From contig NZ_JAEHJZ010000017.1 in the NCBI RefSeq assembly GCF_016469035.1, positions 1 through 34,207 of the forward strand: a stretch of 34,207 bases of DNA. Reading direction: 5' to 3'. A program made the translations under genes and the position numbers. Under the pieces are notes generated by a model that saw only the letters and a program-made list of their open reading frames with translations, made no database searches and was not told the DNA's origin. Below, one piece after another: positions 1,062-33,292 of this stretch; the stretch's first letter is position 1; each line of letters begins with the position of its first letter. The DNA comes from Gelidibacter salicanalis (GTDB lineage Bacteria > Bacteroidota > Bacteroidia > Flavobacteriales > Flavobacteriaceae).

Positions 1062-3488
1062 TCAAGAATCCACCAACTGGTCTATGGCCTTCTCCATATC
1101 AATTGGCTTTTCTAAAACACCTTTAAATAAATCCGTGGTACTCCGCACCCGCTCTGGAACCGTTTGTATGGTGAAGTCATTGACATGCAACCCTGATTTT
1201 ATTTCAGACCAGCTCAAAGGTGTAGATACCGGAGCTAATGGTTTTGGCCTCACACTATACACTGAAACAATGGTCTGCCCCTTTCGATTTTGAAGATAAT
1301 CTAAATAGATCTTTGCCCCCCTTTTTTTAAGTGAGCGTTCCAAAGTGGTTAAGCTGGGCAAGGCTTCATTGACATAAACACATAGGAGTTTTGTAAAATC
1401 CCGGGCCTCTTCATAAGTATACAACCCGCCCATCGGAATATAGATATGAAGCCCAGAGGCGCCAGACGTTTTACAGAACCCTTTTATTTTTGCACGATCT
1501 AAAACAGACTTTACAACCAAGGTGGTCTCGATGACCTCTTCAAATGTATTTTCTGGCGAAGGGTCTAAATCGATAATGGCGTAATCAGGATGGTTTAATT
1601 GATAAATGGTAGAATGCCATGGGTGCAACTCAATACATCCTAAATTATTCATATAAAGTAAGGTTGCCTGATTTTGACAGAGTAAGTAATTGATGTCCTT
1701 TTCAGAAGATTTTGAAGAGACCTCAACCGTTTCAATCCACTTTGGAAGATGGTCATGATCTTTCTGATAAAAAGATTCCCCCAATATGCCGTTAGGATGC
1801 CGATGTAAACTTTCTGGACGGTCTTTGAGATACGGCAGAATATAATCTGACATTTTAATGTAATAATCGAGCAGATCATATTTGGTAAGTTTTGGATTGG
1901 GCCAATACAATTTATCAGGATTGGTGATCTGTACCGCGATACCATCAATCTCCAATGAAAATACTGAATCTGAAGTATGCTGCTTTTTAGGAGCTTGAAA
2001 AGGTGATGTTGACGTTTCAAACTCTAAGGTCTTATCTTCCCTCATTCTTAAAAAAACAGGATGACGCATGACATTGGAAGGCGTCCATTCTGAAAACTTT
2101 ACTTCGCATACCAATTTCGGGAGGAGCCAAACCGCTTCCCGTCCTTTAAGGTGTTGCCGAATCTCAAAGACCGGCGTGTCTGTTTCCAACACTTCAAATT
2201 TATGGTAAAGCTCCGTGAGTTGCTGTTCTGAAAATCCCGAACCACAAGTTCCCACATAGATTAATTCATCCTCTTCTACCATTCCTAAGATCAAAGATCC
2301 AAATTTTCGGGATGCTATCTTTGAAAGGGTGTAGCCGCAGATAATCGTTTCCGTATTTTCAATCCTTTTAAATTTTAACCAGTCGGAAGAACGCACATTT
2401 GGATCATATAGTGAATCCGCTTTTTTCGCAATCACTCCCTCCATCCCCATCCTAATGGCCTGGTCGTATACAGTTACCCCCATAGCTTCCACATGATCAC
2501 AATATTGCAAATGCGGGGTAGCTGGCAGAAGTGTTTTTAACAATTCCTTTCTATCTGACAAGGGCAGTTCAAGCGTATCGTGCCCGTTAAGATGCAGCAC
2601 ATCAAAAATATAATAGATAAGGGTACCTTGAGTGGTGTCCGGATTGTAGTTCTGCAACGCACTAAATTGGGGCAAGCCCTTAGAATCTAACACCACAATT
2701 TCTCCGTCTAAGATGACGGAATGCTCTATTTGGCTCAATTCTTCATGGATGAGTTTGAATTTCTCATTCAATGAAATGCCATTTCTGGAATATAGTTCCA
2801 CAGTACCTGATGCTATATTGGATAACGCACGATACCCGTCGTATTTCAATTCATAAATCCAATTCTTGTCGTTAAAAATCTTCGTTCCAGGTGATGCCAA
2901 CATGGGTTTTACCAAGGACTTCAAATTGAGTTGTGGTGTTGTAAGATGGTCCTCCTTAGAAAAGGCTTCCAAATTGAAGTCTTCCGCATCATAATTGAGG
3001 TGGGTCGCAAATTGATCACTGTGTTTAATGAGCAACCATTGGTCTTTTTTGTCCATGGAAGACGACCGAACCAAGGTAAAGATGCCTTTCATCTTTTTTC
3101 CGTGAAAATTTATTTTCAACTTCCCGTCGGCATAATCTGAAGAGAGGCTTTGATCTTGATATAAGTTTTCATAATAACCAGAATCCCAAATAGTCATTTT
3201 ACCTGCCCCATAATTACCTTTAGGGATAACGCCTTCAAAAGTTAAATACGCCACAGGGTGGTCTTCCGTATGCACCGCCAATCGTTTGTCTTTCGGATTC
3301 ATGGACGGTCCTTTTGGTACAGCCCAACTTTTAAGCACGCCTTCCATCTCCAAGCGTACGTCATAATGTAAATGGCTAGCGCGATGGCGTTGGATGACAA
3401 AACGAAATTTATCAGCGTCATCAAGGATGTCCGTAGGTTCTGGCGTATCCTTAAAATTACGTTTCTTCCGGTAGGCTTCCAAACTCAT
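1062..3488 (-). CDS. ligD: multifunctional ATP-dependent DNA ligase D (NHEJ)
   Basis: An 808-aa protein that processes and seals double-strand breaks with Ku. Domain order is phosphoesterase, ligase, polymerase, as in the Pseudomonas enzyme. The 3'-phosphoesterase domain (about 20-170) shows H35, H41, D43, R45 and H77, spaced like the catalytic set of that family. The ligase domain (about 190-490) has the nucleotidyl-lysine motif ELKYDGYR (K215), DGEIV at 261-265 and a K-F-K motif near 372-374. The primase-polymerase domain (about 505-795) has the metal-binding DLDPS motif (D640, D642), TSGASGLH at 674-681 and a further Asp in IYLDYLQN (D730). All three activities appear intact. The start ATG lies one base after the stop of ku, so the two genes are one operon with ku transcribed first. 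Confidence 0.96.
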   Translation of the reverse strand: MSLEAYRKKRNFKDTPEPTDILDDADKFRFVIQRHRASHLHYDVRLEMEGVLKSWAVPKGPSMNPKDKRLAVHTEDHPVAYLTFEGVIPKGNYGAGKMTIWDSGYYENLYQDQSLSSDYADGKLKINFHGKKMKGIFTLVRSSSMDKKDQWLLIKHSDQFATHLNYDAEDFNLEAFSKEDHLTTPQLNLKSLVKPMLASPGTKIFNDKNWIYELKYDGYRALSNIASGTVELYSRNGISLNEKFKLIHEELSQIEHSVILDGEIVVLDSKGLPQFSALQNYNPDTTQGTLIYYIFDVLHLNGHDTLELPLSDRKELLKTLLPATPHLQYCDHVEAMGVTVYDQAIRMGMEGVIAKKADSLYDPNVRSSDWLKFKRIENTETIICGYTLSKIASRKFGSLILGMVEEDELIYVGTCGSGFSEQQLTELYHKFEVLETDTPVFEIRQHLKGREAVWLLPKLVCEVKFSEWTPSNVMRHPVFLRMREDKTLEFETSTSPFQAPKKQHTSDSVFSLEIDGIAVQITNPDKLYWPNPKLTKYDLLDYYIKMSDYILPYLKDRPESLHRHPNGILGESFYQKDHDHLPKWIETVEVSSKSSEKDINYLLCQNQATLLYMNNLGCIELHPWHSTIYQLNHPDYAIIDLDPSPENTFEEVIETTLVVKSVLDRAKIKGFCKTSGASGLHIYIPMGGLYTYEEARDFTKLLCVYVNEALPSLTTLERSLKKRGAKIYLDYLQNRKGQTIVSVYSVRPKPLAPVSTPLSWSEIKSGLHVNDFTIQTVPERVRSTTDLFKGVLEKPIDMEKAIDQLVDS

Positions 3489-3489
3489 A

Positions 3490-4263
3490 TTAGGAGGCTT
3501 TCTTTTTGCGCTGTTCTAAACTGGCTTTTAATTTGGCCATCAAATCCTTGGCTGCGGTGGGTTCACTTTTTGTTTTTTCAACCTTTACCGTTTTACCCGC
3601 GGCTTTCGATTCAATAATTTTGAGAAGTTGCTTATTATACACGTCCTTGTATTTTTTGAAATCGAATTTTTCAGTGTAGTTCTCAATCAAATCTTCTGCC
3701 ATGGCAATCTCTTTATCTGATGTTTTCGTTGCAGGGATTTTGACCTCCTTAGGATCGCGAATTTCTTCAGCAAACCGAATAACGTGCAGCACAATCACAT
3801 TTTTATAGACCCCAATAAGCGCTAGATTTTCTTTTTGCCGCATGACAAAGGTAGCAACCCCTAATTTGCCTGTTTTTTTTAAGGCATCCCGTAAGAGGTT
3901 ATAGGCTTTGCCACCTTCTTTTTGAGGCTCGAGATAATACGGATTCTTAAAAAGCATGTCGGCCACGTCAGTTTCCTCAACAAATTCCTCAATATCAATA
4001 GTTTTACTTTTTTTGACATTGGCATTCTCAAAGTCCTCTTTTTCGAGAATAACGTAGGCATCATCTTTTTTAAACCCTTTTACGATATCCTTCCATTCCA
4101 CTTCATCTCCCGTATCTTCATTGACACGCTTATACCGAATGCGGGCGTGATCATGTTTATCGAGCATATCGAGGTCTAAGTTGCGACTTTCTGACGCTGA
4201 ATACATTTTTATGGGGATTGATACAAGGCCAAAACTAACGGTTCCATTCCAAACTGATTTCAT
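3490..4263 (-). CDS. ku: Ku DNA end-binding protein (NHEJ)
   Basis: A 257-aa bacterial Ku of normal length. It begins MKSVWNGTVSFGLVSIPIKM, the characteristic N-terminal signature, and contains a typical Ku core (about 1-215) with the 'YYLEP' and 'VMRQKENLALIG' segments. Ku homodimers thread onto broken DNA ends and recruit LigD. The C-terminus (about 218-257) is a lysine-rich tail with an LMAKLKASLEQ helix. Such tails in other bacterial Ku proteins bind DNA and LigD (family knowledge). The gene is first in a two-gene operon, with its stop codon one base before the ligD ATG. Upstream lies a gene-free stretch of about 390 bp. I saw no sporulation or competence genes nearby. Confidence 0.96.
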   Translation of the reverse strand: MKSVWNGTVSFGLVSIPIKMYSASESRNLDLDMLDKHDHARIRYKRVNEDTGDEVEWKDIVKGFKKDDAYVILEKEDFENANVKKSKTIDIEEFVEETDVADMLFKNPYYLEPQKEGGKAYNLLRDALKKTGKLGVATFVMRQKENLALIGVYKNVIVLHVIRFAEEIRDPKEVKIPATKTSDKEIAMAEDLIENYTEKFDFKKYKDVYNKQLLKIIESKAAGKTVKVEKTKSEPTAAKDLMAKLKASLEQRKKKAS

Positions 4264-4852: not shown

Positions 4853-4860
4853 TAATTTTG
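4853..4860 (+). promoter_or_regulatory. -7 box of the merR/carH-like gene
   Basis: TAATTTTG matches the Bacteroidota TAnnTTTG -7 element and lies 21 bp before the ATG at 4882. This argues against translation starting at the TTG at 4858, which overlaps the box. No clear -33 element is seen. Confidence 0.45.
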
Positions 4861-4881
4861 TTTCATATTTTTAATAAAAGA

Positions 4882-5781
4882 ATGAACAATATCAAGACCA
4901 TATTCAGCATAAAAGATTTAGAAAATCTCACTGGTATAAAGGCACATACCATCAGAATTTGGGAAAAAAGATATGAGCTGCTCACTCCCGAGCGTACAGA
5001 CACGAATATTAGATTCTACAATTTAAGTCATCTCAAAAAGTTATTGAACATCAGTTTCCTCAACAATAACGGTCATAAAATTTCAAAGATTGCATCATTA
5101 TCTACTCAAGAAATTCATCAACAGGTGAGAGCGCTTGCTAGTGAAGGACAGCTTAAAAATCATGCCATCAACACTTTTAAATTGGCCATGTTGGATTTTG
5201 ATCAGGAGCTCTTTTATGAAACTTATAACGGACTTATCAAAACAAACTCGTTTTCTGAGGTTTTCTATGATTTTTTTTTACCGCTCCTTTCTGAAATTGG
5301 CATGCTTTGGCAAACAGATACTATAACGCCGGCGCACGAACATTTCATTTCGTCCCTGATCAGGCAAAAAGTGTTGGTTAACACTGAAATTTTGCAAGCT
5401 CAAAATAAAATAGAACATCGCAACGCCTTTGTGTTATTTCTCCCGGATAATGAAGTCCATGAAATTGGTTTGATGTTTATCAATTATGAACTGATTGCCA
5501 GAGGACACCGTTCAATTCTTTTAGGATCAAGCGTCCCCATTATCAGCTTGACAGATGTGCTGCCCTACTACCAAAAAATCACTTTCATTTCCTATTTTAC
5601 CATTAAACCCGAAAAAGAAGAACTCTCAAGATATCTAGCCGAGTTTAAGGCAAAACTACTGACAGATAACACCAACCAATTGTGGGCGCTAGGACACATG
5701 ACCCAACACATCGACCACCAGTCTCTCCCTCCATCTATCAAAATTTTTAGGACAATAAACAGTTTAATAGCTACGATTTAA
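4882..5781 (+). CDS. MerR-family regulator with cobalamin-binding domain, CarH/LitR-like, probable carotenoid photoregulator
   Basis: A 299-aa protein from the ATG at 4882. I prefer this to an in-frame TTG at 4858 because a -7 promoter box overlaps that codon. Residues 6-75 are a MerR winged helix-turn-helix with the signature GIKAHTIRIWEKRY. Residues 90-170 are the helical cap found in B12-binding regulators, and residues 180-299 the Rossmann-like cobalamin domain. Two diagnostic signatures are present: W143-x9-E153-H154, which in CarH contacts the upper face of adenosylcobalamin, and E191-V-H193-E-I-G196, whose His is the lower axial ligand. CarH proteins repress carotenoid genes in the dark and release DNA when light breaks the cobalt-carbon bond (family knowledge). 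The gene lies directly upstream of crtI on the same strand, so control of the crt cluster is a strong inference. Confidence 0.9.
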   Translation: MNNIKTIFSIKDLENLTGIKAHTIRIWEKRYELLTPERTDTNIRFYNLSHLKKLLNISFLNNNGHKISKIASLSTQEIHQQVRALASEGQLKNHAINTFKLAMLDFDQELFYETYNGLIKTNSFSEVFYDFFLPLLSEIGMLWQTDTITPAHEHFISSLIRQKVLVNTEILQAQNKIEHRNAFVLFLPDNEVHEIGLMFINYELIARGHRSILLGSSVPIISLTDVLPYYQKITFISYFTIKPEKEELSRYLAEFKAKLLTDNTNQLWALGHMTQHIDHQSLPPSIKIFRTINSLIATI

Positions 5782-5790
5782 TGCTTTAAA

Positions 5791-5822
5791 ATTGTTTTTT
5801 GTTTAACTTTTTAGTATTTTTG
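5791..5822 (+). promoter_or_regulatory. crtI promoter
   Basis: An ATTG -33-like element (5791-5794), a 20-bp spacer and TATTTTTG as the -7 box (5815-5822) match the Bacteroidota pattern. The crtI ATG at 5830 begins only 8 bases after the -7 box, so the transcript would be leaderless or nearly so. Confidence 0.6.
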
Positions 5823-5830
5823 TTAAACAA
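5799..5830. promoter_or_regulatory. candidate operator over crtI promoter and start codon
   Basis: A perfect 9-bp inverted repeat: TTGTTTAAC at 5799-5807 and GTTAAACAA at 5822-5830, with a 14-bp spacer. It encloses the -7 box and its right arm ends on the A of the crtI ATG. A dimeric or tetrameric regulator bound here would block transcription. The adjacent MerR/B12 protein is the obvious candidate ligand. Confidence 0.6.
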
Positions 5831-7317
5831 TGAATACACGTATTGCTATTATCGGTTCCGGTTTCTCTGCTTTATCTGCAGCCTGCTATCTTGCAAGAGA
5901 TGGCTACAAAGTGACCATTTTTGAAAAGAATAACACCATTGGAGGTCGCGCCAGACAACTCAAAAAAGACGGTTTCACCTTTGATATTGGACCAACCTGG
6001 TATTGGATGCCAGATGTGTTTGAACGCTTTTTTGCGGATTTTGGTAAACATCCTTCTGACTATTATCAGTTGGAAAAACTCAGTCCCGCTTACAGCGTTT
6101 ATTTTGCAAAAGACGATTTCATTACGATTGAAGACACTTTGGGAAAAATTTGCGAAACATTTGAAAAAGAAGAACCAGGAAGCTCCCAAAAGCTCAAAAA
6201 ATTTATTGCCAATGCGCAACATAATTATGACGTTGCCATTAAAGATCTAGTGTATCGGCCAGGGGTCTCACCTTTTGAATTGATGACTCCTGTGACCATT
6301 AAAAAATTAGATCAGTTTTTCAGCACCATTAAGAAAGATGTCCGTAAAGAGTTTAAGAATGAACGCTTGGCAAAAATTCTTGAATTCCCCGTTTTATTTT
6401 TAGGAGCTAAACCAGATAACACACCTTCTTTCTATAGCTTTATGAACTATGCCGATTTTGGAATTGGTACGTTTCATCCCAAAAAAGGGATGTACGAAGT
6501 GGTGTTGGCTATGGAACAATTGGCGTTAAGCTTAGGTGTCCATATTAAAACGGGACAGTCTGTTGACAAGATCAATGTAGAAGATAACACCGTTACCAGC
6601 ATTAGGGCCAATGGAGAAACTATTGCTTTTGACGGGGTGCTGAGTGGCGCTGATTACCATCATACAGAAACATTGTTAGACCAGTCCTACCGTCAATATT
6701 CTGAAAACTACTGGAAGAAGAAAGTATTTGCACCGTCTTCACTCCTGTTTTATGTGGCCTTTGATAAAAAGTTAATCAATGTCAATCACCACACTTTGTT
6801 CTTTGATGTCGACTTTGAATTGCACGCCAAAGAGATTTACGATACTCCAAAATGGCCTACAGACCCCTTATTCTATGCAAGTTTCCCTTCTTTAACCGAC
6901 AACAGTGTGGCGCCAGAAGGACAGGAAGCGGGTATTTTCTTAATTCCGCTGGCACCAGGATTAGAAGACACACCAGAATTAAGAGCCCTTTATTTTGACA
7001 AGATTATTGCGCGCTTCGAAAATTTAACTTCCCAAACCGTCAAAAATAATATTATATTTAAGGAGTCCTTCTGTGTAAAAGACTTTATTCAAGATTATAA
7101 CTCTTACAAAGGTAATGCTTACGGCATGGCAAATACGCTTCTGCAAACTGCCTTTTTAAGACCTAAATTGAAGAGCAAAAAAGTAAATAATCTTTATTTT
7201 ACCGGACAACTGACAGTTCCGGGACCTGGAGTACCGCCATCATTGATTTCTGGAAAATTGGTTTCAGAACTTATTAAAAAACATCATACCCTGATAAATT
7301 ATGAAAGCGCTATTTGA
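5830..7317 (+). CDS. crtI: phytoene desaturase (lycopene-forming)
   Basis: A 495-aa FAD-dependent carotenoid desaturase, the usual length for CrtI. The N-terminus carries the dinucleotide-binding fold IAIIGSGFSALSAA (about 5-18), followed by FEKNNTIGGRARQ and 'DIGPTWYWMP', all typical of the family. The C-terminus has the second FAD-contact segment YFTGQLTVPGPGVPPS. It converts phytoene to lycopene by successive desaturations. It is the first enzyme gene of the cluster, lies directly behind a palindromic promoter, and its end overlaps the start of crtB by 17 nt, indicating translational coupling. Context with crtB supports phytoene desaturase over related CrtD or CrtN enzymes. Confidence 0.95.
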   Translation: MNTRIAIIGSGFSALSAACYLARDGYKVTIFEKNNTIGGRARQLKKDGFTFDIGPTWYWMPDVFERFFADFGKHPSDYYQLEKLSPAYSVYFAKDDFITIEDTLGKICETFEKEEPGSSQKLKKFIANAQHNYDVAIKDLVYRPGVSPFELMTPVTIKKLDQFFSTIKKDVRKEFKNERLAKILEFPVLFLGAKPDNTPSFYSFMNYADFGIGTFHPKKGMYEVVLAMEQLALSLGVHIKTGQSVDKINVEDNTVTSIRANGETIAFDGVLSGADYHHTETLLDQSYRQYSENYWKKKVFAPSSLLFYVAFDKKLINVNHHTLFFDVDFELHAKEIYDTPKWPTDPLFYASFPSLTDNSVAPEGQEAGIFLIPLAPGLEDTPELRALYFDKIIARFENLTSQTVKNNIIFKESFCVKDFIQDYNSYKGNAYGMANTLLQTAFLRPKLKSKKVNNLYFTGQLTVPGPGVPPSLISGKLVSELIKKHHTLINYESAI

Positions 7318-8140
7318 CACCGTTTCACATAAATGTAGTAAGGCCGTAACAAACTCTTACAGCACGTCATTTTCTCTTGCTACCAAAATGTTGGCCAATA
7401 GCATCCGCCAGGATATCTATAATATCTATGGCTTTGTCCGGTTTGCAGATGAAATTGTCGATTCTTTTCACGACTATGATAAACAAATGCTTTTTGACCG
7501 GTTTGAAGAAGATGTAGAACTTGCACTTCAACAGAAAATCAGTTTGAACCCTATTCTCAACGCGTTTCAGGAAACCTATCACAAATTTAATATTGACAGG
7601 CATCTTGTGGATTCTTTTCTGAAAAGTATGCGTTTGGATTTGCACAAAAATGACTATTTAACAGAAGCGGATTATAAAATGTACATCTACGGTTCTGCCG
7701 ATGTTGTAGGATTAATGTGCCTAAAAGTATTTGTAAAGGGTGATAAAAATAGGTACGAAGCTTTAAAAGATAGTGCGATGAGTCTGGGCTCTGCCTTTCA
7801 GAAAGTCAATTTTCTTAGAGATTTAAAAGCCGATTTTGAAGATTTGAGCAGGACCTATTTTCCCAATACCAATTTGAACCATTTAGATGAAATCTCTAAA
7901 AAAGCCATCATTGAGGATATTGAAAATGATTTTGCTTTGGGACTGAAAGGTATTAAAGAGTTGCCAATCGAGGCAAAATTTGGTGTTTTTATGGCTTACA
8001 GATATTATAACCAACTTCTCAAGAAATTAAAAAACACACCCGCACTGGATATTAAATCCGCCAGAATCAGGGTGCCAAACTATAAAAAGTTTGAACTTTT
8101 AACTCGAAGTTACGTCAAATATCAACTCAATTTAATGTAA
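7301..8140 (+). CDS. crtB: phytoene synthase
   Basis: A 279-aa squalene/phytoene synthase family enzyme that condenses two geranylgeranyl diphosphates head-to-head into phytoene. The first Asp-rich motif is DEIVD (D50-D54), within YGFVRFADEIVD. The second is D174-LKA-D178 within NFLRDLKADFEDLSRTYFP. An N-terminal SYSTSFSLA segment (about 19-27) is also typical. The ATG lies inside the last codons of crtI (17-nt overlap), and crtZ begins 8 bp after the stop, so it is mid-operon. Confidence 0.95.
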   Translation: MKALFDTVSHKCSKAVTNSYSTSFSLATKMLANSIRQDIYNIYGFVRFADEIVDSFHDYDKQMLFDRFEEDVELALQQKISLNPILNAFQETYHKFNIDRHLVDSFLKSMRLDLHKNDYLTEADYKMYIYGSADVVGLMCLKVFVKGDKNRYEALKDSAMSLGSAFQKVNFLRDLKADFEDLSRTYFPNTNLNHLDEISKKAIIEDIENDFALGLKGIKELPIEAKFGVFMAYRYYNQLLKKLKNTPALDIKSARIRVPNYKKFELLTRSYVKYQLNLM

Positions 8141-8148
8141 TTTTAGAC

Positions 8149-8598
8149 ATGCAAATTTTTCTTTGGATACTGATATTTTTTGGCACTTTTGCCATCATGG
8201 AGTTTAATGCGTGGTTTACGCATAAGTATATCATGCACGGCTTTTTATGGAGCCTTCATAAAGACCACCACCATAAAGACCATAAAAGTTGGTTTGAGCG
8301 CAATGATGCCTTCTTTATATTTTATGCTGTGATCAGTATGACCTGTTTTTACTTATGGAGCTATGAGGATATTTGGTATTGCCTGCCTTTAGGCTTGGGC
8401 ATTTTAGCCTATGGGATTGCCTATTTTACGGTTCATGATATCTTTATTCACCAACGCTTTAAAATCTTTAGAAATGCCAATAATTGGTACGCCAAAGGTG
8501 TACGACGTGCACATAAAATGCACCATAAACATTTAGGCAAAGAAGATGGTGAATGCTTTGGGATGCTGGTAGTCCCTTTTAAATACTTCAAAAAATAA
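8149..8598 (+). CDS. crtZ: beta-carotene hydroxylase
   Basis: A 149-aa membrane di-iron hydroxylase of the fatty-acid hydroxylase superfamily, which adds 3/3'-hydroxyls to beta-ionone rings to give zeaxanthin. All histidine clusters are present: HKYIMH (H25, H30), HKDHH (H37, H40, H41), HDIFIH (H96, H101) and HKMHH (H122, H125, H126). Hydrophobic segments at about 3-18, 53-70 and 78-96 are consistent with a membrane protein. Length is normal for bacterial CrtZ. It sits between crtB and crtY on the same strand with short gaps. Confidence 0.94.
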   Translation: MQIFLWILIFFGTFAIMEFNAWFTHKYIMHGFLWSLHKDHHHKDHKSWFERNDAFFIFYAVISMTCFYLWSYEDIWYCLPLGLGILAYGIAYFTVHDIFIHQRFKIFRNANNWYAKGVRRAHKMHHKHLGKEDGECFGMLVVPFKYFKK

Positions 8599-8620
8599 AC
8601 AGTTTAGGCCGGTTATCGTT

Positions 8621-9775
8621 ATGCAAGACAGGACGTCTTTTGATTACATTATCATCGGAAATGGTCTTGCCGGGTTGCAGTTGGCTCTAGAACTATCTAA
8701 AGACCCGTTTTTTAAATCGTACACCATAGGGTTAATCGATCCTTCTTTAAAGGACACCAACGACAAAACCTGGAGTTTTTGGGAACAAGGCGCAGGAAAA
8801 TGGGACAGTATAGTGGAAAAAATATGGCATAGCGCCACTTTTGAATCGCCCAATGTATCCTTAAAAATTCCGCTTCAAAACTATCGCTACAAGACCATCA
8901 GATCTATTGAGTTTTATAACTATGCGAAAGCACAGCTTTTAGACTGCCCCAATATTAGCTTTATAGTAGATACGGTTGAAACCATAGAAACAGGCTCCAC
9001 CACCCAAGTCATTGGACAAAAACAGAATTATTCTGCGACGCATATTTTTGACAGTAGGGTTCCTGACAAATTTTATGCTCCCAATTTTCAGCATACGCTG
9101 ATCCATCAACATTTTAAAGGCTGGATTATTGAGACTGATTCTCCAAGTTTTAATCCGGAAGCCTTCACCATGATGGACTATAGATTTCAGTATAAAGACT
9201 CGACCAGTTTTATTTATGTACTGCCTTTTTCTGAAACAAAAGCGCTGGTGGAGTATACCTTTTTTACGCCGTTTACGGTGGAGACAGCAGTATATGAAGA
9301 CGCTATTAAACGCTATCTCTTAGAAGAACATAACATGGCTCATTTTAGGATTATAGAAACTGAAGTCGGCACTATTCCGATGACCGATTTCCCGTTTTGG
9401 AAGTTTCACACTAAAAATATTACTAAAATTGGCACTGGGGGTGGCTGGGTCAAAGGCTCTTCAGGCTATTCATTTAAACATACCGAAAAAAACGTTGCCA
9501 AGCTACTCGCAAATATTAAAGCTGGAAAGCGCCCGTCGTACAATTTATTCAAGAAGAAATTCAAATTTTACGATAAGATTTTCCTGAAAGTTCTGCATGA
9601 TGAAAACGAAAAAGGCGTATGGATTTTTGAACGTTTCTATTCCAAAAACACCATCCGCACCATGTTCCGATTTTTAGATGAAGAAACTTCATTCTCAGAA
9701 GATCTAGCCATCATGAAATCCTTGTTTTCAATGGCGTTTATTAAGGCCTTCTTTAAAGTGTTATTCAAGTTTTAA
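8621..9775 (+). CDS. crtY: lycopene beta-cyclase
   Basis: A 384-aa flavoprotein of the CrtY/lycopene cyclase family, which closes both ends of lycopene to form beta-carotene. The N-terminal nucleotide-binding motif is DYIIIGNGLAGLQLALEL (about 5-22), followed by 'DKTWSFWEQG', a family hallmark. A mid-protein 'MDYRFQ' and 'FIYVLPFSETKALVEYTFF' region and a late 'GTGGGWVKGSSGYSF' segment are also typical. It is the last gene of the crt operon. Its 3' end overlaps the 3' end of the convergent tlpA-like gene by 15 bp, and no terminator hairpin is visible between them. Confidence 0.94.
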   Translation: MQDRTSFDYIIIGNGLAGLQLALELSKDPFFKSYTIGLIDPSLKDTNDKTWSFWEQGAGKWDSIVEKIWHSATFESPNVSLKIPLQNYRYKTIRSIEFYNYAKAQLLDCPNISFIVDTVETIETGSTTQVIGQKQNYSATHIFDSRVPDKFYAPNFQHTLIHQHFKGWIIETDSPSFNPEAFTMMDYRFQYKDSTSFIYVLPFSETKALVEYTFFTPFTVETAVYEDAIKRYLLEEHNMAHFRIIETEVGTIPMTDFPFWKFHTKNITKIGTGGGWVKGSSGYSFKHTEKNVAKLLANIKAGKRPSYNLFKKKFKFYDKIFLKVLHDENEKGVWIFERFYSKNTIRTMFRFLDEETSFSEDLAIMKSLFSMAFIKAFFKVLFKF

Positions 9776-29637: not shown

Positions 29638-30378
29638 ATGAAGTTAAGCGCATCCAATTTAATGAAGTCCTACAGTGGGCGCCAAGTGGTTAAAAATGTC
29701 TCTTTGGAAGTTAATCAAGGGGAAATTGTGGGCTTACTCGGCCCCAATGGAGCAGGAAAAACCACCTCATTTTATATGATTGTGGGCTTGATTAAACCGA
29801 ATGGCGGAAAAATCCATCTAGACAATCAGGAAATCACCAAATATCCGATGTACAAACGCGCACAAAACGGTATTGGTTATTTGGCCCAAGAAGCCTCTGT
29901 ATTTAGAAAATTGAGCATTGAAGACAACATCTTGAGCGTTCTCCAAATGACAAAATTGTCAAAAAAAGAACAACTCGATAAGATGGAATCGTTGATTGAT
30001 GAATTTGGATTGGGGCACATCAGAAAGAGTAGAGGCGATTTATTGTCAGGTGGTGAGCGCCGTCGTACTGAAATAGCACGTGCCTTGGCCACAAACCCTA
30101 ACTTCATTTTATTGGACGAACCTTTTGCCGGAGTAGATCCTGTGGCGGTAGAAGACATTCAGCGTATTGTAGCCCAACTGACCAAAAAGAACATTGGTAT
30201 TTTAATTACTGACCATAATGTTCAGGAAACCCTAGCCATTACTGATAGAACCTATTTAATGTTTGAAGGCAATATTTTAAAAGCCGGAAAACCTGAAGAA
30301 CTGGCTGAAGATGAAATGGTCCGGAAGGTCTATTTGGGCCAGAATTTCGAATTACGGAAGAAAAAACTCTTGTTCTAG
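29638..30378 (+). CDS. lptB: LPS export ABC transporter ATP-binding protein
   Basis: A 246-aa ATPase that powers the LptB2FG complex, extracting LPS from the inner membrane. Walker A is GPNGAGKT (35-42), the Q-loop near 'YLAQEASVFRKLS' (81-93), the signature LSGGERRRTEIARALA (136-151), Walker B 'FILLDEPFAGVDP' (156-168) and the H-loop 'LITDHNV'. 'EASVFRKLSIEDNI' and 'GERRRTEIARAL' are specific to LptB rather than to other ABC ATPases. It closes the operon begun by kpsF. The repeat array starts about 35-75 bp after its stop. Confidence 0.95.
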   Translation: MKLSASNLMKSYSGRQVVKNVSLEVNQGEIVGLLGPNGAGKTTSFYMIVGLIKPNGGKIHLDNQEITKYPMYKRAQNGIGYLAQEASVFRKLSIEDNILSVLQMTKLSKKEQLDKMESLIDEFGLGHIRKSRGDLLSGGERRRTEIARALATNPNFILLDEPFAGVDPVAVEDIQRIVAQLTKKNIGILITDHNVQETLAITDRTYLMFEGNILKAGKPEELAEDEMVRKVYLGQNFELRKKKLLF

Positions 30379-30563
30379 GGGGAAGTTTACACCCTATTTC
30401 TTGTGTTATGTCGTTGTGGGTGTTGATCCGCCGTTGTTGGTGTTGTACGCCGTTGTTGGTGTTTTTCACCAACAACTCTTTTTCTCGCAAAAATCCTATT
30501 CAACGTTATGCCGCTGTTGGTGTTTTCCACCAACAGCTCTTTCTCCCTCAAAAACACTACGCC

Positions 30564-30693
30564 GTTGTTCGTGTTTTCCACCAACAACCCTTTCTCCATC
30601 CAAATCCTATTACATTATAAATTTAGAGCAAAACCCGTCTTATAGCGACCTATCGTAGACATAAATCAATGTTGGTGAAAAACACCAACATTG
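30564..30693 (+). repeat. composite repeat unit U1 (A-spacer-B)
   Basis: A 130-bp unit: A hairpin (30564-30588, one stem mismatch), a spacer with the ATTTAGAGC core, and B hairpin (30667-30693). Spacer subtype 1 (GCAAAACC ... ATCGTAGACATAAA). An additional B hairpin follows at 30707-30733. Confidence 0.88.
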
Positions 30694-30744
30694 GCAGTCT
30701 GGAAAACAATGTTGGTGGAAAACACCAACATTGGCATCCACGCC

Positions 30745-30875
30745 GTTGTTGGTGCTTTCCACCAACAACTCTTTCTCTATCCAAAATCCTATTTCATTCT
30801 AAATTTAGAGCGTAACCTGTCGTATAACGACCTGTCGTAGACATAAAACAATGTTGGTGGAAAACACCAACATTG
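30745..30875 (+). repeat. composite repeat unit U2 (A-spacer-B)
   Basis: A 131-bp unit with perfect A (30745-30769) and B (30849-30875) stems. The spacer mixes features of both subtypes (GCGTAACC with TCGTAGACATAAA) and also holds a perfect GTCGT-ATA-ACGAC mini-hairpin at 30819-30831. Confidence 0.9.
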
Positions 30876-30998
30876 GCAGCGTGGAAAACACCATCATGTG
30901 CAGCCTGAAAAACACCAACATGGGCATCCAGGCCGTTGTTCAAGTTTTCCACCAACAACTCTTCCGTGTTCATTCGCCGTTGTTGGTGTTAATACGCC

Positions 30999-31130
30999 GT
31001 TGTTGGTGTTTTTCACCAACAACTCTTTTTCTATGCAAAAATCCTATTAAATTCTACACTTAGAGCAAAACTTGACTTATAACAACCTATCGTAGACATA
31101 AAACAATGTTGGTGAAAAACACCAACATTG
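30999..31130 (+). repeat. composite repeat unit U3 (A-spacer-B)
   Basis: A 132-bp unit with A 30999-31023 and B 31104-31130, subtype 1 spacer. An A half-site (30979-30988) precedes it by 20 bp. Confidence 0.9.
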
Positions 31131-31193
31131 GCATCCAGGCCGTTGTTCAAGTTTTCCACCAACAACTCTTCCCACAATATACTCTTCCTATTT

Positions 31194-31718
31194 CTATCTA
31201 AAATCAGTCAGAAATCCGAAGTCATCTCCTAGACCTTCATAGAACCGTGCAGAAGAAAACTTATAATCAACGGAACTTCCACACATTCCAGCTTTAACAG
31301 GATTCTGATGGATATACTTTAACTTTTGTTCAATAATTGCATTAGAATACAGATCTATACATAGTGCATTCCGCTGCCAAAATTGATAGGTGCGATCTTT
31401 AGAAGCTACTAAAAACTGTTTTAAAACATCCCTATGATTATTCTCCAAATCTCTTTTAATACGCTGAGCGGTAAATTTCATAAAGCTCAATTGGGTATGT
31501 TTCAAAGAATATAGCAACGTAGGTTTCCAAATAATATGAATATGGTTATCCATTATAACATAGCCATATACAATAACTCTTTCGGCTTTAACCAAATATT
31601 GTAACGACTCAATAATGATAAGTTTATACGATTCTTGAAATAACAGTGTCTTCCAATCTAAAATTGTTGCGGTATAAAATTGTGGACAATTTTCTATGGT
31701 CATGGGTTTTAGATCCAT
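31194..31718 (-). CDS. REP-associated tyrosine transposase (RAYT), Y1-HUH, IS200-like
   Basis: A 174-aa protein of the IS200/REP-associated transposase group. The HUH metal-binding pair is H59-I-H61 in GYVIMDNHIHIIW. The probable catalytic tyrosine is Y135 in KLKYIHQNPVKAG, with N139 at the Y-x3-N/Q position used by Y1 transposases. The C-terminal DYKFSSARFYEG segment is also typical. The motifs look intact, so it may be active. RAYTs cut and join short REP hairpins and are usually single-copy and non-autonomous in spread (family knowledge). The gene sits inside a hairpin array: an A hairpin ends 27 bp past its stop, and A-type half-sites begin within about 30-70 bp of its start. This makes those hairpins its likely substrates. 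Confidence 0.9.
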   Translation of the reverse strand: MDLKPMTIENCPQFYTATILDWKTLLFQESYKLIIIESLQYLVKAERVIVYGYVIMDNHIHIIWKPTLLYSLKHTQLSFMKFTAQRIKRDLENNHRDVLKQFLVASKDRTYQFWQRNALCIDLYSNAIIEQKLKYIHQNPVKAGMCGSSVDYKFSSARFYEGLGDDFGFLTDFR

Positions 31719-31836
31719 GTATGAACACTTTTTTTTTAATTGGTATATGCGCTGTCCTGTTGTTGCTACGCCGTTGTTGTGTTTCTTTTACCCTGTTGTT
31801 GTGTTTCTTTTACGCCGTTGTTGGTGCTGATACGCC

Positions 31837-31966
31837 GTTGTTGGTGTTTTCCACCAACAACTCTTTCTCTATCCAAAATCTTATTTCATTCTAAATTTAG
31901 AGCGTAACCTGTCTTATAAATACCTGTCGGAGACTAAAACAATGTTGGTGAAAAACACCAACATTG
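31837..31966 (+). repeat. composite repeat unit U4 (A-spacer-B)
   Basis: A 130-bp unit with perfect A and B stems and subtype 2 spacer (GCGTAACC ... GTCGGAGACTAAAA). An A half-site at 31817-31826 precedes it by 20 bp, and a B half-site follows. Confidence 0.9.
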
Positions 31967-32025
31967 GCAGTCTGGAAAACACCAACATTGGCAGCGTGAA
32001 AAATACGGACATTCACATTCACGCC

Positions 32026-32155
32026 GTTGTTGGTGTTTTCCACCAACAACACTCTCTCCATCCAAATCCTATTCCATTGTAAATTTAGAGCAAAACCTGA
32101 CTTATAACGACCTATCGTAGACATAAAACAATGTTGGTGAAAAACACCAACATTG
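32026..32155 (+). repeat. composite repeat unit U5 (A-spacer-B)
   Basis: A 130-bp unit with perfect A (32026-32050) and B (32129-32155) stems, subtype 1 spacer. Two B half-sites follow at exact 24-bp steps (CACCAAC at 32145, 32169 and 32193). Confidence 0.9.
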
Positions 32156-32239
32156 GCAGCTTGAAAAACACCAACATTGGCAGTCTGGAAAACACCAACA
32201 TTGGCATCTAGGCTTTACAGCAAAAGTTATTTTCACGCC

Positions 32240-32369
32240 GTTGTTCGTGTTTTCCACCAACAACTCTTTCTCCATCAAAAATCTTATTTTATTCTAAATT
32301 TAGAGCGTAACCTGTCTTATAAATACCTGTCGGAGACTAAAACAATGTTGGTGAAAAACACCAACATTG
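32240..32369 (+). repeat. composite repeat unit U6 (A-spacer-B)
   Basis: A 130-bp unit, A arm with the GTTGTTCGTG variant (one mismatch), perfect B (32343-32369), subtype 2 spacer almost identical to that of U4. One B half-site follows before the DUF808 gene. Confidence 0.9.
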
Positions 32370-32416
32370 GCAGTCTGGAAAACACCAACATTGGCATCTA
32401 GGCTTTAGAGCAAAAG

Positions 32417-33292
32417 TTATTTCCTAAACACACCCATCAGTTTTTTCACTCCAGTAAAGACCAACAAAGCTACCGCGCCAAAAACGAGCCCGATTACAAA
32501 CTCTTTAATTATAGATGGCCAAGTCTCTAAGACGTGATGCAAAAAATCTAAATTGTGGGCAAAAATACCCCCGGCAACCAATAGTAGCGCAATGGTACCT
32601 ATTACGCCCAAGCTTCTAATCACCCACGGTAAGGCATTAACTAACAAATGGCCAAAAAAGTCTGAAATGCTTTTTTCGTCATCGTTAAATTTGATCAAGC
32701 GGTACCCAAAATCGTCCATTCTCACAATCAGGGCTACAATACCGTAAACACCCACGGTTGCAATTAGAGCCACAATGCTCACCACCAGAATCTGAATAAG
32801 CAGCGGTTGCCCAATAACGCTCCCAAGTGCAATAATTACAATTTCTACAGACAGAATAAAATCTGTTAGAATGGCAGATTTGATTTTTGTCTTTTCAATT
32901 TCTAAAATATCAGCTTCTGAGAGGTCTTCGGTTTGCACTGTTTCAACACCCTCGTGGTGCGGTACCAAATATTCATAAAGCTTTTCTGCACCTTCATACG
33001 CCAAATAAATCCCGCCCAATATTAAAATCACGGTGACCGCAACGGGTAAGAAAGCACTCAGCAAAAAAGCGACAGGTAAAATAATGAGCTTATTTATAAA
33101 GGAGCCTTTAGTAATGGCCCACAACACGGGAATTTCACGGGATGCCACAAATCCGGAAGCCTTTTCCGCATTAACGGCCAAATCATCACCCAAAATTCCG
33201 GCAGTTTTTTTAGTGGAAATTTTGGCCATCGCAGCCACATCGTCCATAAGAACCCCAATATCATCTAAAAGTGCAAAAAATCCTGAAGCCAT
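32417..33292 (-). CDS. DUF808 family membrane protein (YedI-like)
   Basis: A 291-aa protein of the DUF808 family, related to E. coli YedI. The N-terminus 'ASGFFALLDDIGVLMDDVAAMAKISTKKTAGILGDDLAVNA' is the family signature. Hydrophobic segments lie at about 70-95, 145-165, 170-195, 215-240 and 255-280. Function is unknown; family members are inner-membrane proteins without an assigned role. Its stop codon marks the right edge of the repeat array. Six bases matching its 3' end (AAATAA in gene sense) are duplicated inside the array at about 32228-32233, so the array has grown by duplicating DNA that touched this gene. Confidence 0.88.
   Translation of the reverse strand: MASGFFALLDDIGVLMDDVAAMAKISTKKTAGILGDDLAVNAEKASGFVASREIPVLWAITKGSFINKLIILPVAFLLSAFLPVAVTVILILGGIYLAYEGAEKLYEYLVPHHEGVETVQTEDLSEADILEIEKTKIKSAILTDFILSVEIVIIALGSVIGQPLLIQILVVSIVALIATVGVYGIVALIVRMDDFGYRLIKFNDDEKSISDFFGHLLVNALPWVIRSLGVIGTIALLLVAGGIFAHNLDFLHHVLETWPSIIKEFVIGLVFGAVALLVFTGVKKLMGVFRK

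Follow-up and report, generated by a model that had tools for sequence, protein, structure and literature searches.

A single-copy RAYT transposase in Gelidibacter salicanalis and the GCC-tagged REP hairpins it probably recognises

Introduction

The way in which a REP-associated tyrosine transposase (RAYT, or TnpA_REP) recognises its repetitive extragenic palindromes (REPs) has been worked out for GTAG-tagged systems of Proteobacteria. In Bacteroidetes, RAYTs of TnpA_REP subclass 2.6 flanked by "atypical" REP-like structures were reported in 2018 (Quentin et al., PMC6006769), a subclass that this paper equates with the group 5 RAYTs (Bertels et al. 2017), while the available part of the paper describes the REPs of the Bacteroidetes class only as atypical. 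Here, we analyse a 34,207-nucleotide stretch of Gelidibacter salicanalis (contig NZ_JAEHJZ010000017.1, referred to as C78; the whole stretch is called the window), in which a single gene, a RAYT, interrupts a 2-kb region of repeats located between an LptB-like and a DUF808-like gene. The locus very probably represents a REPtron of this known class, i.e., a single-copy domesticated Y1 HUH transposase (RAYT, subclass 2.6 or group 5) together with the hairpin family that it recognises. The likely substrate can now be given at base level as a GCC tag, a covarying foot, a fixed core, and a T-rich loop, along with a variant belonging to a diverged transposase, and its recognition is therefore directly testable. 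In addition, the locus and its relatives hold an unusually clear record of hairpin spread and decay, combined with an unusual recognition tag.

Anatomy of the REP hairpin

The element that the RAYT would recognise is a REP with the consensus 5'-GCC-NN-TGTTGGTG-TTTTY-CACCAACA. The core TGTTGGTG / CACCAACA is fixed, the 5-nt loop is T-rich, and GCC forms a one-sided, unpaired 5' tag that is neither GTAG nor CGTC and is preceded by varying bases. Pattern, DNA, and protein searches were run on the genome of the window, a 5.16-Mb draft in 682 contigs, from which selected stretches were also fetched. The pattern GCCNNTGTTGGTGNNNNNCACCAACA gave 71 + 59 raw matches at ≤2 mismatches, while the reversed control pattern gave 0, and 1 + 1 when 3 mismatches were allowed. 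The window and 18 fetched stretches together contain 110 REP copies at ≤3 mismatches after removal of opposite-strand echoes, and 81 of them are perfect; at least one more match (C34:12486) lies outside these stretches.

The tag was also found when it was not part of the search. With only the exact hairpin core requested and GCC scored 2 nt outside the stem core, 165 of 175 hairpins carried GCC on exactly one side and none on both, as seen in the own genome (81/85), the congeners G012 (16/16), G395 (20/20), and G396 (23/25), and ten RAYT loci fetched by protein (25/29). The NN bases following the tag form a foot, pairing with the two bases that follow the 3' arm, mainly as GT/AC (30), AT/AT (27), GC/GC (23), and AA/TT (11 of 110). 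Across 45 unique copies, the two foot positions are paired in 42 and 41 cases, whereas shuffled controls average 29 and 32 and none of 2000 attains the observed values; a G stands opposite the last C of the tag in only 4 of the 45. The outer foot pair covaries likewise in the three congeners; the signal of the inner pair is weaker in two of them, with 87 (G012) and 190 (G395) of 2000 shuffles reaching the observed values. Finally, 201 of 214 REPs in the four genomes lie outside open reading frames (ORFs) of at least 110 aa.

The RAYT transposase

The RAYT gene (31194..31718, minus strand) encodes an intact Y1 HUH transposase of 174 aa. It is the only match in its own genome at E ≤ 0.01, and REPs flank it on both sides (30449-31164 and 31834-32371). 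The protein matches NCBIfam NF047646 REP_Tyr_transpos with an E-value of 1.2e-18 and 67.4 bits, under the curated cut-off of 80, and Pfam Y1_Tnp with 15.9 against a cut-off of 23. For comparison, an alignment of 24 RAYTs was made from the window protein and 23 of 42 homologous loci, in which the matched stretch is one frame without a stop. All 24 sequences match NF047646, and the best solved structure for the alignment profile is TnpArep 4er8 (E 2.2e-8), while a phmmer search of the Protein Data Bank with the single 174-aa protein found no transposase. The initial annotation had placed a Y1-HUH transposase with intact motifs in the array, and this is borne out by the open frame and by H59, H61, and Y135, which are invariant in the alignment together with W114, N139, P140, S155, and S156. 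The motifs of the window protein read NHIH, YIHQNP, FWQ, and SSAR, with WK or WE in some close relatives, and they fit TnpA_REP subclass 2.6 (group 5) as far as the motifs are printed in the available part of PMC6006769. In one related locus, L039, the best-matching RAYT stretch has two stops in frame, and a second RAYT-like stretch in two pieces is found ~1.7 kb before it.

Association of REP and RAYT across genomes

The same REP adjoins the RAYT in ten of ten Flavobacteriaceae loci encoding a RAYT 66-77% identical to that of the window (L032-L040, L042), and their genomes contain 2-36 raw REP matches with a control of 0. In a survey of 395 genomes of the family, with a close RAYT defined by at least 280 bits, all three genomes with a close RAYT had perfect REPs, as compared with at least one perfect copy in four of the 392 others. 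When the family survey, the genus survey, and the genomes of the ten RAYT loci are combined, all 11 genomes that encode a close RAYT have perfect REPs vs 8 of 398 without (Fisher p 6e-17), where two surveyed genomes are identical with two of the ten (identical coordinates) and "without" stands for without a close RAYT, as many of the 398 encode distant ones. The RAYT is thus associated with its own REP family, as the initial annotation had proposed.

Furthermore, the REP changes along with RAYT divergence. Four of six Ferruginibacter genomes, with RAYTs 51-61% identical, contain GCC-NN-TGTTGGTC-loop-GACCAACA with 1-7 matches each; here, tag and arm are unchanged, while the innermost pair is swapped on both sides (GTTGGTC/GACCAAC), constituting a compensated change. 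Among 18 more distant RAYT loci, recurrent hairpins of other sequence were found beside seven. These include GGTTGGTG hairpins beside a Pedobacter RAYT (44% identical) and CGTGGGAA hairpins beside the RAYT in two Scalindua loci and a Desulfobacteraceae metagenome-assembled genome (MAG; 34-37%). It is because the hairpins of Ferruginibacter, Pedobacter, Scalindua, and Desulfobacteraceae differ with their RAYT that the two are seen to change together.

Several of the distant loci display features of their own. The Pedobacter RAYT in L048 (4836-5630) is flanked by four hairpins of the GGTTGGTG or TTTGGTG type with 3-nt loops. RAYTs 52-55% identical in L041, L043, L044, and L046 (Ferruginibacter and an unclassified Bacteroidetes MAG) are without full hairpins of this kind and have recurrent half motifs, for example GCCGTTGTTGGTA or GCCTTTGTTGGTA, next to them. 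A flavobacterial RAYT 35% identical (G284:C1:2135442-2135918) has its own hairpin, CTGCGAAGTT...AACTTCGCAG, with a single copy to one side and, on the other, three copies spaced 122 bp apart (L190 1686, 2559, 2681, and 2803). In the same genome, the reversed control pattern gave 26 one-strand matches, which represent another abundant hairpin family, ACAACCAC...GTGGTTGT; none of these was found within 4.5 kb around the RAYT.

REPs with and without a close RAYT in the genus

The genus offers a natural experiment, as it comprises an intact close RAYT in one genome, a broken copy in another, and raw REP matches ranging from 130 to none. Only the genome of the window has an intact close RAYT among the ten genomes of the genus, while G396 carries a broken copy in a different place (L133), and G397, G398, and G400 encode distant RAYT-like genes. 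Raw REP matches at ≤2 mismatches number 130 (own), 54, 36, 34, 17, 6, 3, 1, 0, and 0. The lptB-DUF808 neighbourhood is conserved in the nine other congeners, and no RAYT relic was found in this gap in any of them; G012 and G395 have inverted REPs at the site without the RAYT gene. Relics were also sought in fetched stretches of G012, G395, G396, G400, G142, G354, and G021, and only G396 was positive. Outside the genus, the RAYT occupies the lptB-DUF808 site in L032, L033, and L037, and none was observed at that site in the remaining seven close loci, three of which (L035, L040, and L042) end at contig ends; inheritance therefore need not be simply vertical. Perfect copies account for 81 of 110 REPs in the genome with the RAYT vs 59 of 104 in G012, G395, and G396 (p 0.01, with tandem copies not being independent). 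We infer that the relatives lost the RAYT and that their REPs have decayed slowly since.

Composite families and the organisation of REPs

One family of REP-bounded composites has dispersed, with ends at the tags, and is seen, within the genus, in the RAYT-bearing species alone. Of the 110 REPs in the window and the 18 fetched stretches, 54 form 27 inverted pairs with their tags facing outwards, and all 27 pairs belong to three spacer families. The window family has spacers of 83-85 bp (six units, one locus), a second on C574 has 115-bp spacers (three units, one locus), and the third, termed family 2, has spacers of 129-152 bp and comprises 18 units in six loci on four contigs (one each on C487, C651, and C284 and three on C273); C435 and C89 hold partial copies. 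When 11 units of family 2 are aligned, the loci are seen by eye to be homologous up to the GCC tags and not beyond, and matches to the family 2 spacer were found in one of ten congeners, the RAYT bearer, and in none of the nine without an intact close RAYT. The spread of family 2, its tag-bounded homology, and its restriction to the RAYT-bearing genome support mobile composites bounded by REPs.

By contrast, a DNA search found the full window unit in no other locus of the own genome, and this unit is best read as a local tandem duplication. The REPIN arrangement (two inverted REPs with the DNA between them) proposed by the initial annotation thus holds for the inverted pairs, and composites do recur elsewhere in the form of family 2, while its 130-bp unit as a dispersed entity is not supported. 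The remaining 56 of the 110 REPs stand alone, follow each other head to tail, or have other arrangements, and these are as intact as the paired ones, 40 of 56 being perfect vs 41 of 54, with "single" including head-to-tail clusters. The tags-out arrangement is found in 27 of 85 pairs of neighbouring REPs in the own genome and in 1/22, 4/19, and 0/11 such neighbours in G012, G395, and G396, respectively; two homologous tags-out pairs in G395 have spacers of 82-83 bp and are ~8.5 kb apart. This mixed single, head-to-tail, and composite organisation bears on whether the REP or the REPIN is the replicating unit. The REPIN is real as an arrangement, but it is not the only unit and perhaps not the basic one.

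The array in the window

Six units, each composed of hairpin A, a spacer, and an inverted hairpin B, are found in uniform orientation on the plus strand at 30561..30695, 30742..30877, 30996..31132, 31834..31968, 32023..32157, and 32237..32371, with spacers of 83, 84, 85, 83, 83, and 83 bp, respectively. Their mutual identity is 86-97%, and a 162-bp unit query matches the five other copies with E-values of 1e-41 to 1e-74, far beyond chance. In unit 1, REP A has a GT foot and REP B an AA foot. Folding of unit 4 as DNA gives two separate hairpins for A and B rather than one long hairpin (z -6.2 and -5.0 on the two strands). The initial annotation was right about the six like-oriented units with inverted GCC...GGC outer ends, but its lengths of 130-132 bp with a spacer of ~78 bp become 135-137 bp from GCC to GGC and 83-85 bp. 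Likewise, its A-to-B distances (103, 104, 105, 103, 103, and 103 bp) keep their series with a constant offset of 6, being 109, 110, 111, 109, 109, and 109 from A start to B start. Its inventory also left out several half-REPs and further full REPs, as the array has 17 full REPs in all at ≤3 mismatches. Three of these have 0 mismatches, namely an A type at 30449..30474 (plus), one with a GC foot at 30510..30535 (plus), and a B type at 30710..30735 (minus), while two degenerate A types are located at 30932..30957 and 31139..31164 (both plus).

No Rfam family matched at gathering scores in 30300-32500. CRISPR (clustered regularly interspaced short palindromic repeats) and integron readings were set aside by inference, the conserved part being a tagged hairpin beside a Y1 transposase and the spacers being too short for gene cassettes.

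Half-REPs

Beside full REPs there are half-REPs, which consist of the tag, the 5' arm, and the loop without the 3' arm and are mostly located 17-28 nt upstream. They occur in all four genomes examined as well as in relatives, with 45 distinct junctions. Their polarity is pronounced, as 36 stand on the tag side vs 1 on the other side at gaps of ≤15 nt, and 45 vs 7 at distances of ≤120 nt, with 17 isolated. The corresponding 3' halves are rarer (9 vs 69 5' halves). The position of the break within the loop is variable, which favours slippage at the hairpin as the origin of half-REPs, a reaction of the RAYT being a possible alternative. In the window, half-REPs (tag plus 5' arm) are found on the plus strand at 30430..30444, 30976..30990, and 31814..31828, on the tag side of the REPs starting at 30449, 30996, and 31834, respectively. 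On the minus strand, they are found at 31978..31992 and 32381..32395, on the tag side of REP B of units 4 and 6, and two in tandem with a 24-nt period (32167..32205) flank REP B of unit 5 on its tag side.

Possible mechanism and alternative explanations

In the REPtron reading, the RAYT would bind the tagged hairpin where DNA is single-stranded, as at replication forks, and cut it by means of Tyr135. Single REPs, or the stretch between two inverted tags-out REPs, could then be copied or moved into new extragenic sites, and the system may still be active. Later recombination or slippage would produce tandem arrays in place, the six units of the window representing such a local array beside the gene. 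As for what is replicated, it may tentatively be proposed that the single GCC-tagged REP is the replicating unit, that inverted landings carry along 83, 115, or 130 bp of passenger DNA and thereby make new composites repeatedly, and that half-REPs are scars of strand transfer. The opposite possibility, that the 130-bp A-spacer-B unit itself moves and single REPs are its decayed remnants as in Pseudomonas fluorescens SBW25, agrees with the existence of composite families with conserved spacers, one of them dispersed with its ends at the tags, with the tags-out inversion of 27/85 neighbouring pairs in the own genome, and with the two homologous pairs of G395. It is nonetheless doubtful, since the window unit is confined to a single locus, tags-out pairs are few or absent in G012, G395, and G396, and unpaired REPs are as perfect as paired ones, unlike in SBW25 according to the available part of PMC3116915.

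Several observations weigh against the REPtron reading. The RAYT gene by itself does not ensure a high copy number, because REPs are confined to the RAYT surroundings in G401, G405, G406, and G407. Conversely, REPs occur without the RAYT gene, as seen in the REP-bearing congeners and in three genomes of other genera that have 1-4 perfect REPs and no RAYT match at E ≤ 1e-8. Although copies are by no means equally common in genomes with and without the transposase, raw matches number 6-54 in five congeners lacking an intact close RAYT, among them G396 with its broken copy, and 1-3 in two more. More distant RAYTs are present in 100 of the 392 comparison genomes (all ≤102 bits) and in three congeners, and the ten RAYT genomes outside the focal genus were picked by protein similarity, not at random. 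Two Ferruginibacter genomes, G410 and G412, have a RAYT and repeated half motifs beside it, yet no hairpin variant. Finally, a clean empty site was sought at C273 and C487 and none was found, as only one flank is conserved in congeners; at C487, the gene flanking the array is kept in seven congeners, which lack such a REP pair over a distance of 1.5 kb, and the gene on the other side differs.

The presence of REPs without a close RAYT would also be explained if a host function, such as transcript ends, mRNA stability, or chromosome structure, or recombination alone keeps or multiplies the hairpins, with the RAYT being a bystander or otherwise employed. The extragenic position of the REPs (201/214), the convergent orientation of 28 of 71 gene contexts, and the apparently local tandem growth are in line with this, but it would not lead one to expect a REP tied to this RAYT clade, a change of REP accompanying RAYT divergence, or the restriction of family 2 to the RAYT-bearing species of the genus, and we consider it improbable. 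Even less credit, bordering on none, can be given to miniature inverted-repeat transposable elements (MITEs) mobilised by an unrelated transposase, with the RAYT as a hitch-hiker. While the REP-bounded composites with their conserved interior do look like MITEs, their ends are tagged hairpins, visual inspection of the family 2 borders revealed no obvious target-site duplication, and the same hairpin stands beside the RAYT in ten other genomes.

Neighbouring genes

The conserved borders of the RAYT site are formed by a gene on the left (29638..30378, plus strand), which we take from its translation to encode an LptB-like ABC ATPase, and a gene on the right (32417..33292, minus strand), presumably encoding a DUF808-like membrane protein. 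A second DUF808-like gene (G000:C89:176103-176942) is 70% identical to the latter. Elsewhere in the window, LigD-like (808 aa) and Ku-like (257 aa) ORFs are adjacent at 1062-4263 and presumably represent a bacterial end-joining pair. One run of regulator and carotenoid genes extends over 4858-9775, which we assume from the translations to be a MerR-like regulator and genes of the CrtI, CrtB, CrtZ, and CrtY types.

Comparison with known REP-RAYT systems

The initial annotation knew of no description of the repeat family. For the GCC tag this stands, as no description of a GCC-tagged REP was found in open-access literature, although it may be listed in a supplementary table of PMC6006769; it does not stand for the class, whose atypical REP-like flanks were reported in 2018, as noted above. 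The locus is accordingly a REPtron of a known class with a tag for which the open-access literature yielded no description. The following comparisons refer to the available parts of the papers cited. Subclass 2.6 (PMC6006769) shares with the window the occurrence in Bacteroidetes, the motifs NH[LIV]H, YIH[QN]NP, W/WQ, and SS, and gene-flanking hairpins without GT[AG]G that have further genomic copies. However, the structures are described there as atypical and weaker with no tag named, whereas the hairpin described here is stable with a one-sided GCC tag and is accompanied by ~110 copies, composite families, and half-REPs.

The REPIN/RAYT system of SBW25 (PMC3116915, PMC8049555) similarly displays inverted REP pairs linked to a RAYT, an extragenic position, tandem clusters, and compensatory changes. 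Yet, its tag is GTAG instead of GCC, and its spacers are short and highly diverse, while those described here are 83, 115, or ~130 bp and conserved within families. Moreover, single REPs are more decayed than paired ones in SBW25 (PMC3116915), whereas unpaired REPs are common here and not more decayed. TnpA_REP of Escherichia coli (PDB 4er8; PMC8266576) belongs to the same HUH transposase family by sequence, and its REP is likewise a tag followed by a hairpin, although with a GTAG tag and a bulged stem in place of a GCC tag and a perfect stem (PMC8266576). The bacterial interspersed mosaic elements (BIMEs) of E. coli are similar in being clusters of inverted REPs (PMC6006769). Finally, the GTAG and CGTC super-families (PMC3733652) also consist of short tagged palindromes, and CGTC repeats occur in Bacteroidetes as well, but the tag described here is neither of the two, and while CGTC repeats are reported there to be without a flanking RAYT, the GCC-tagged REPs have one.

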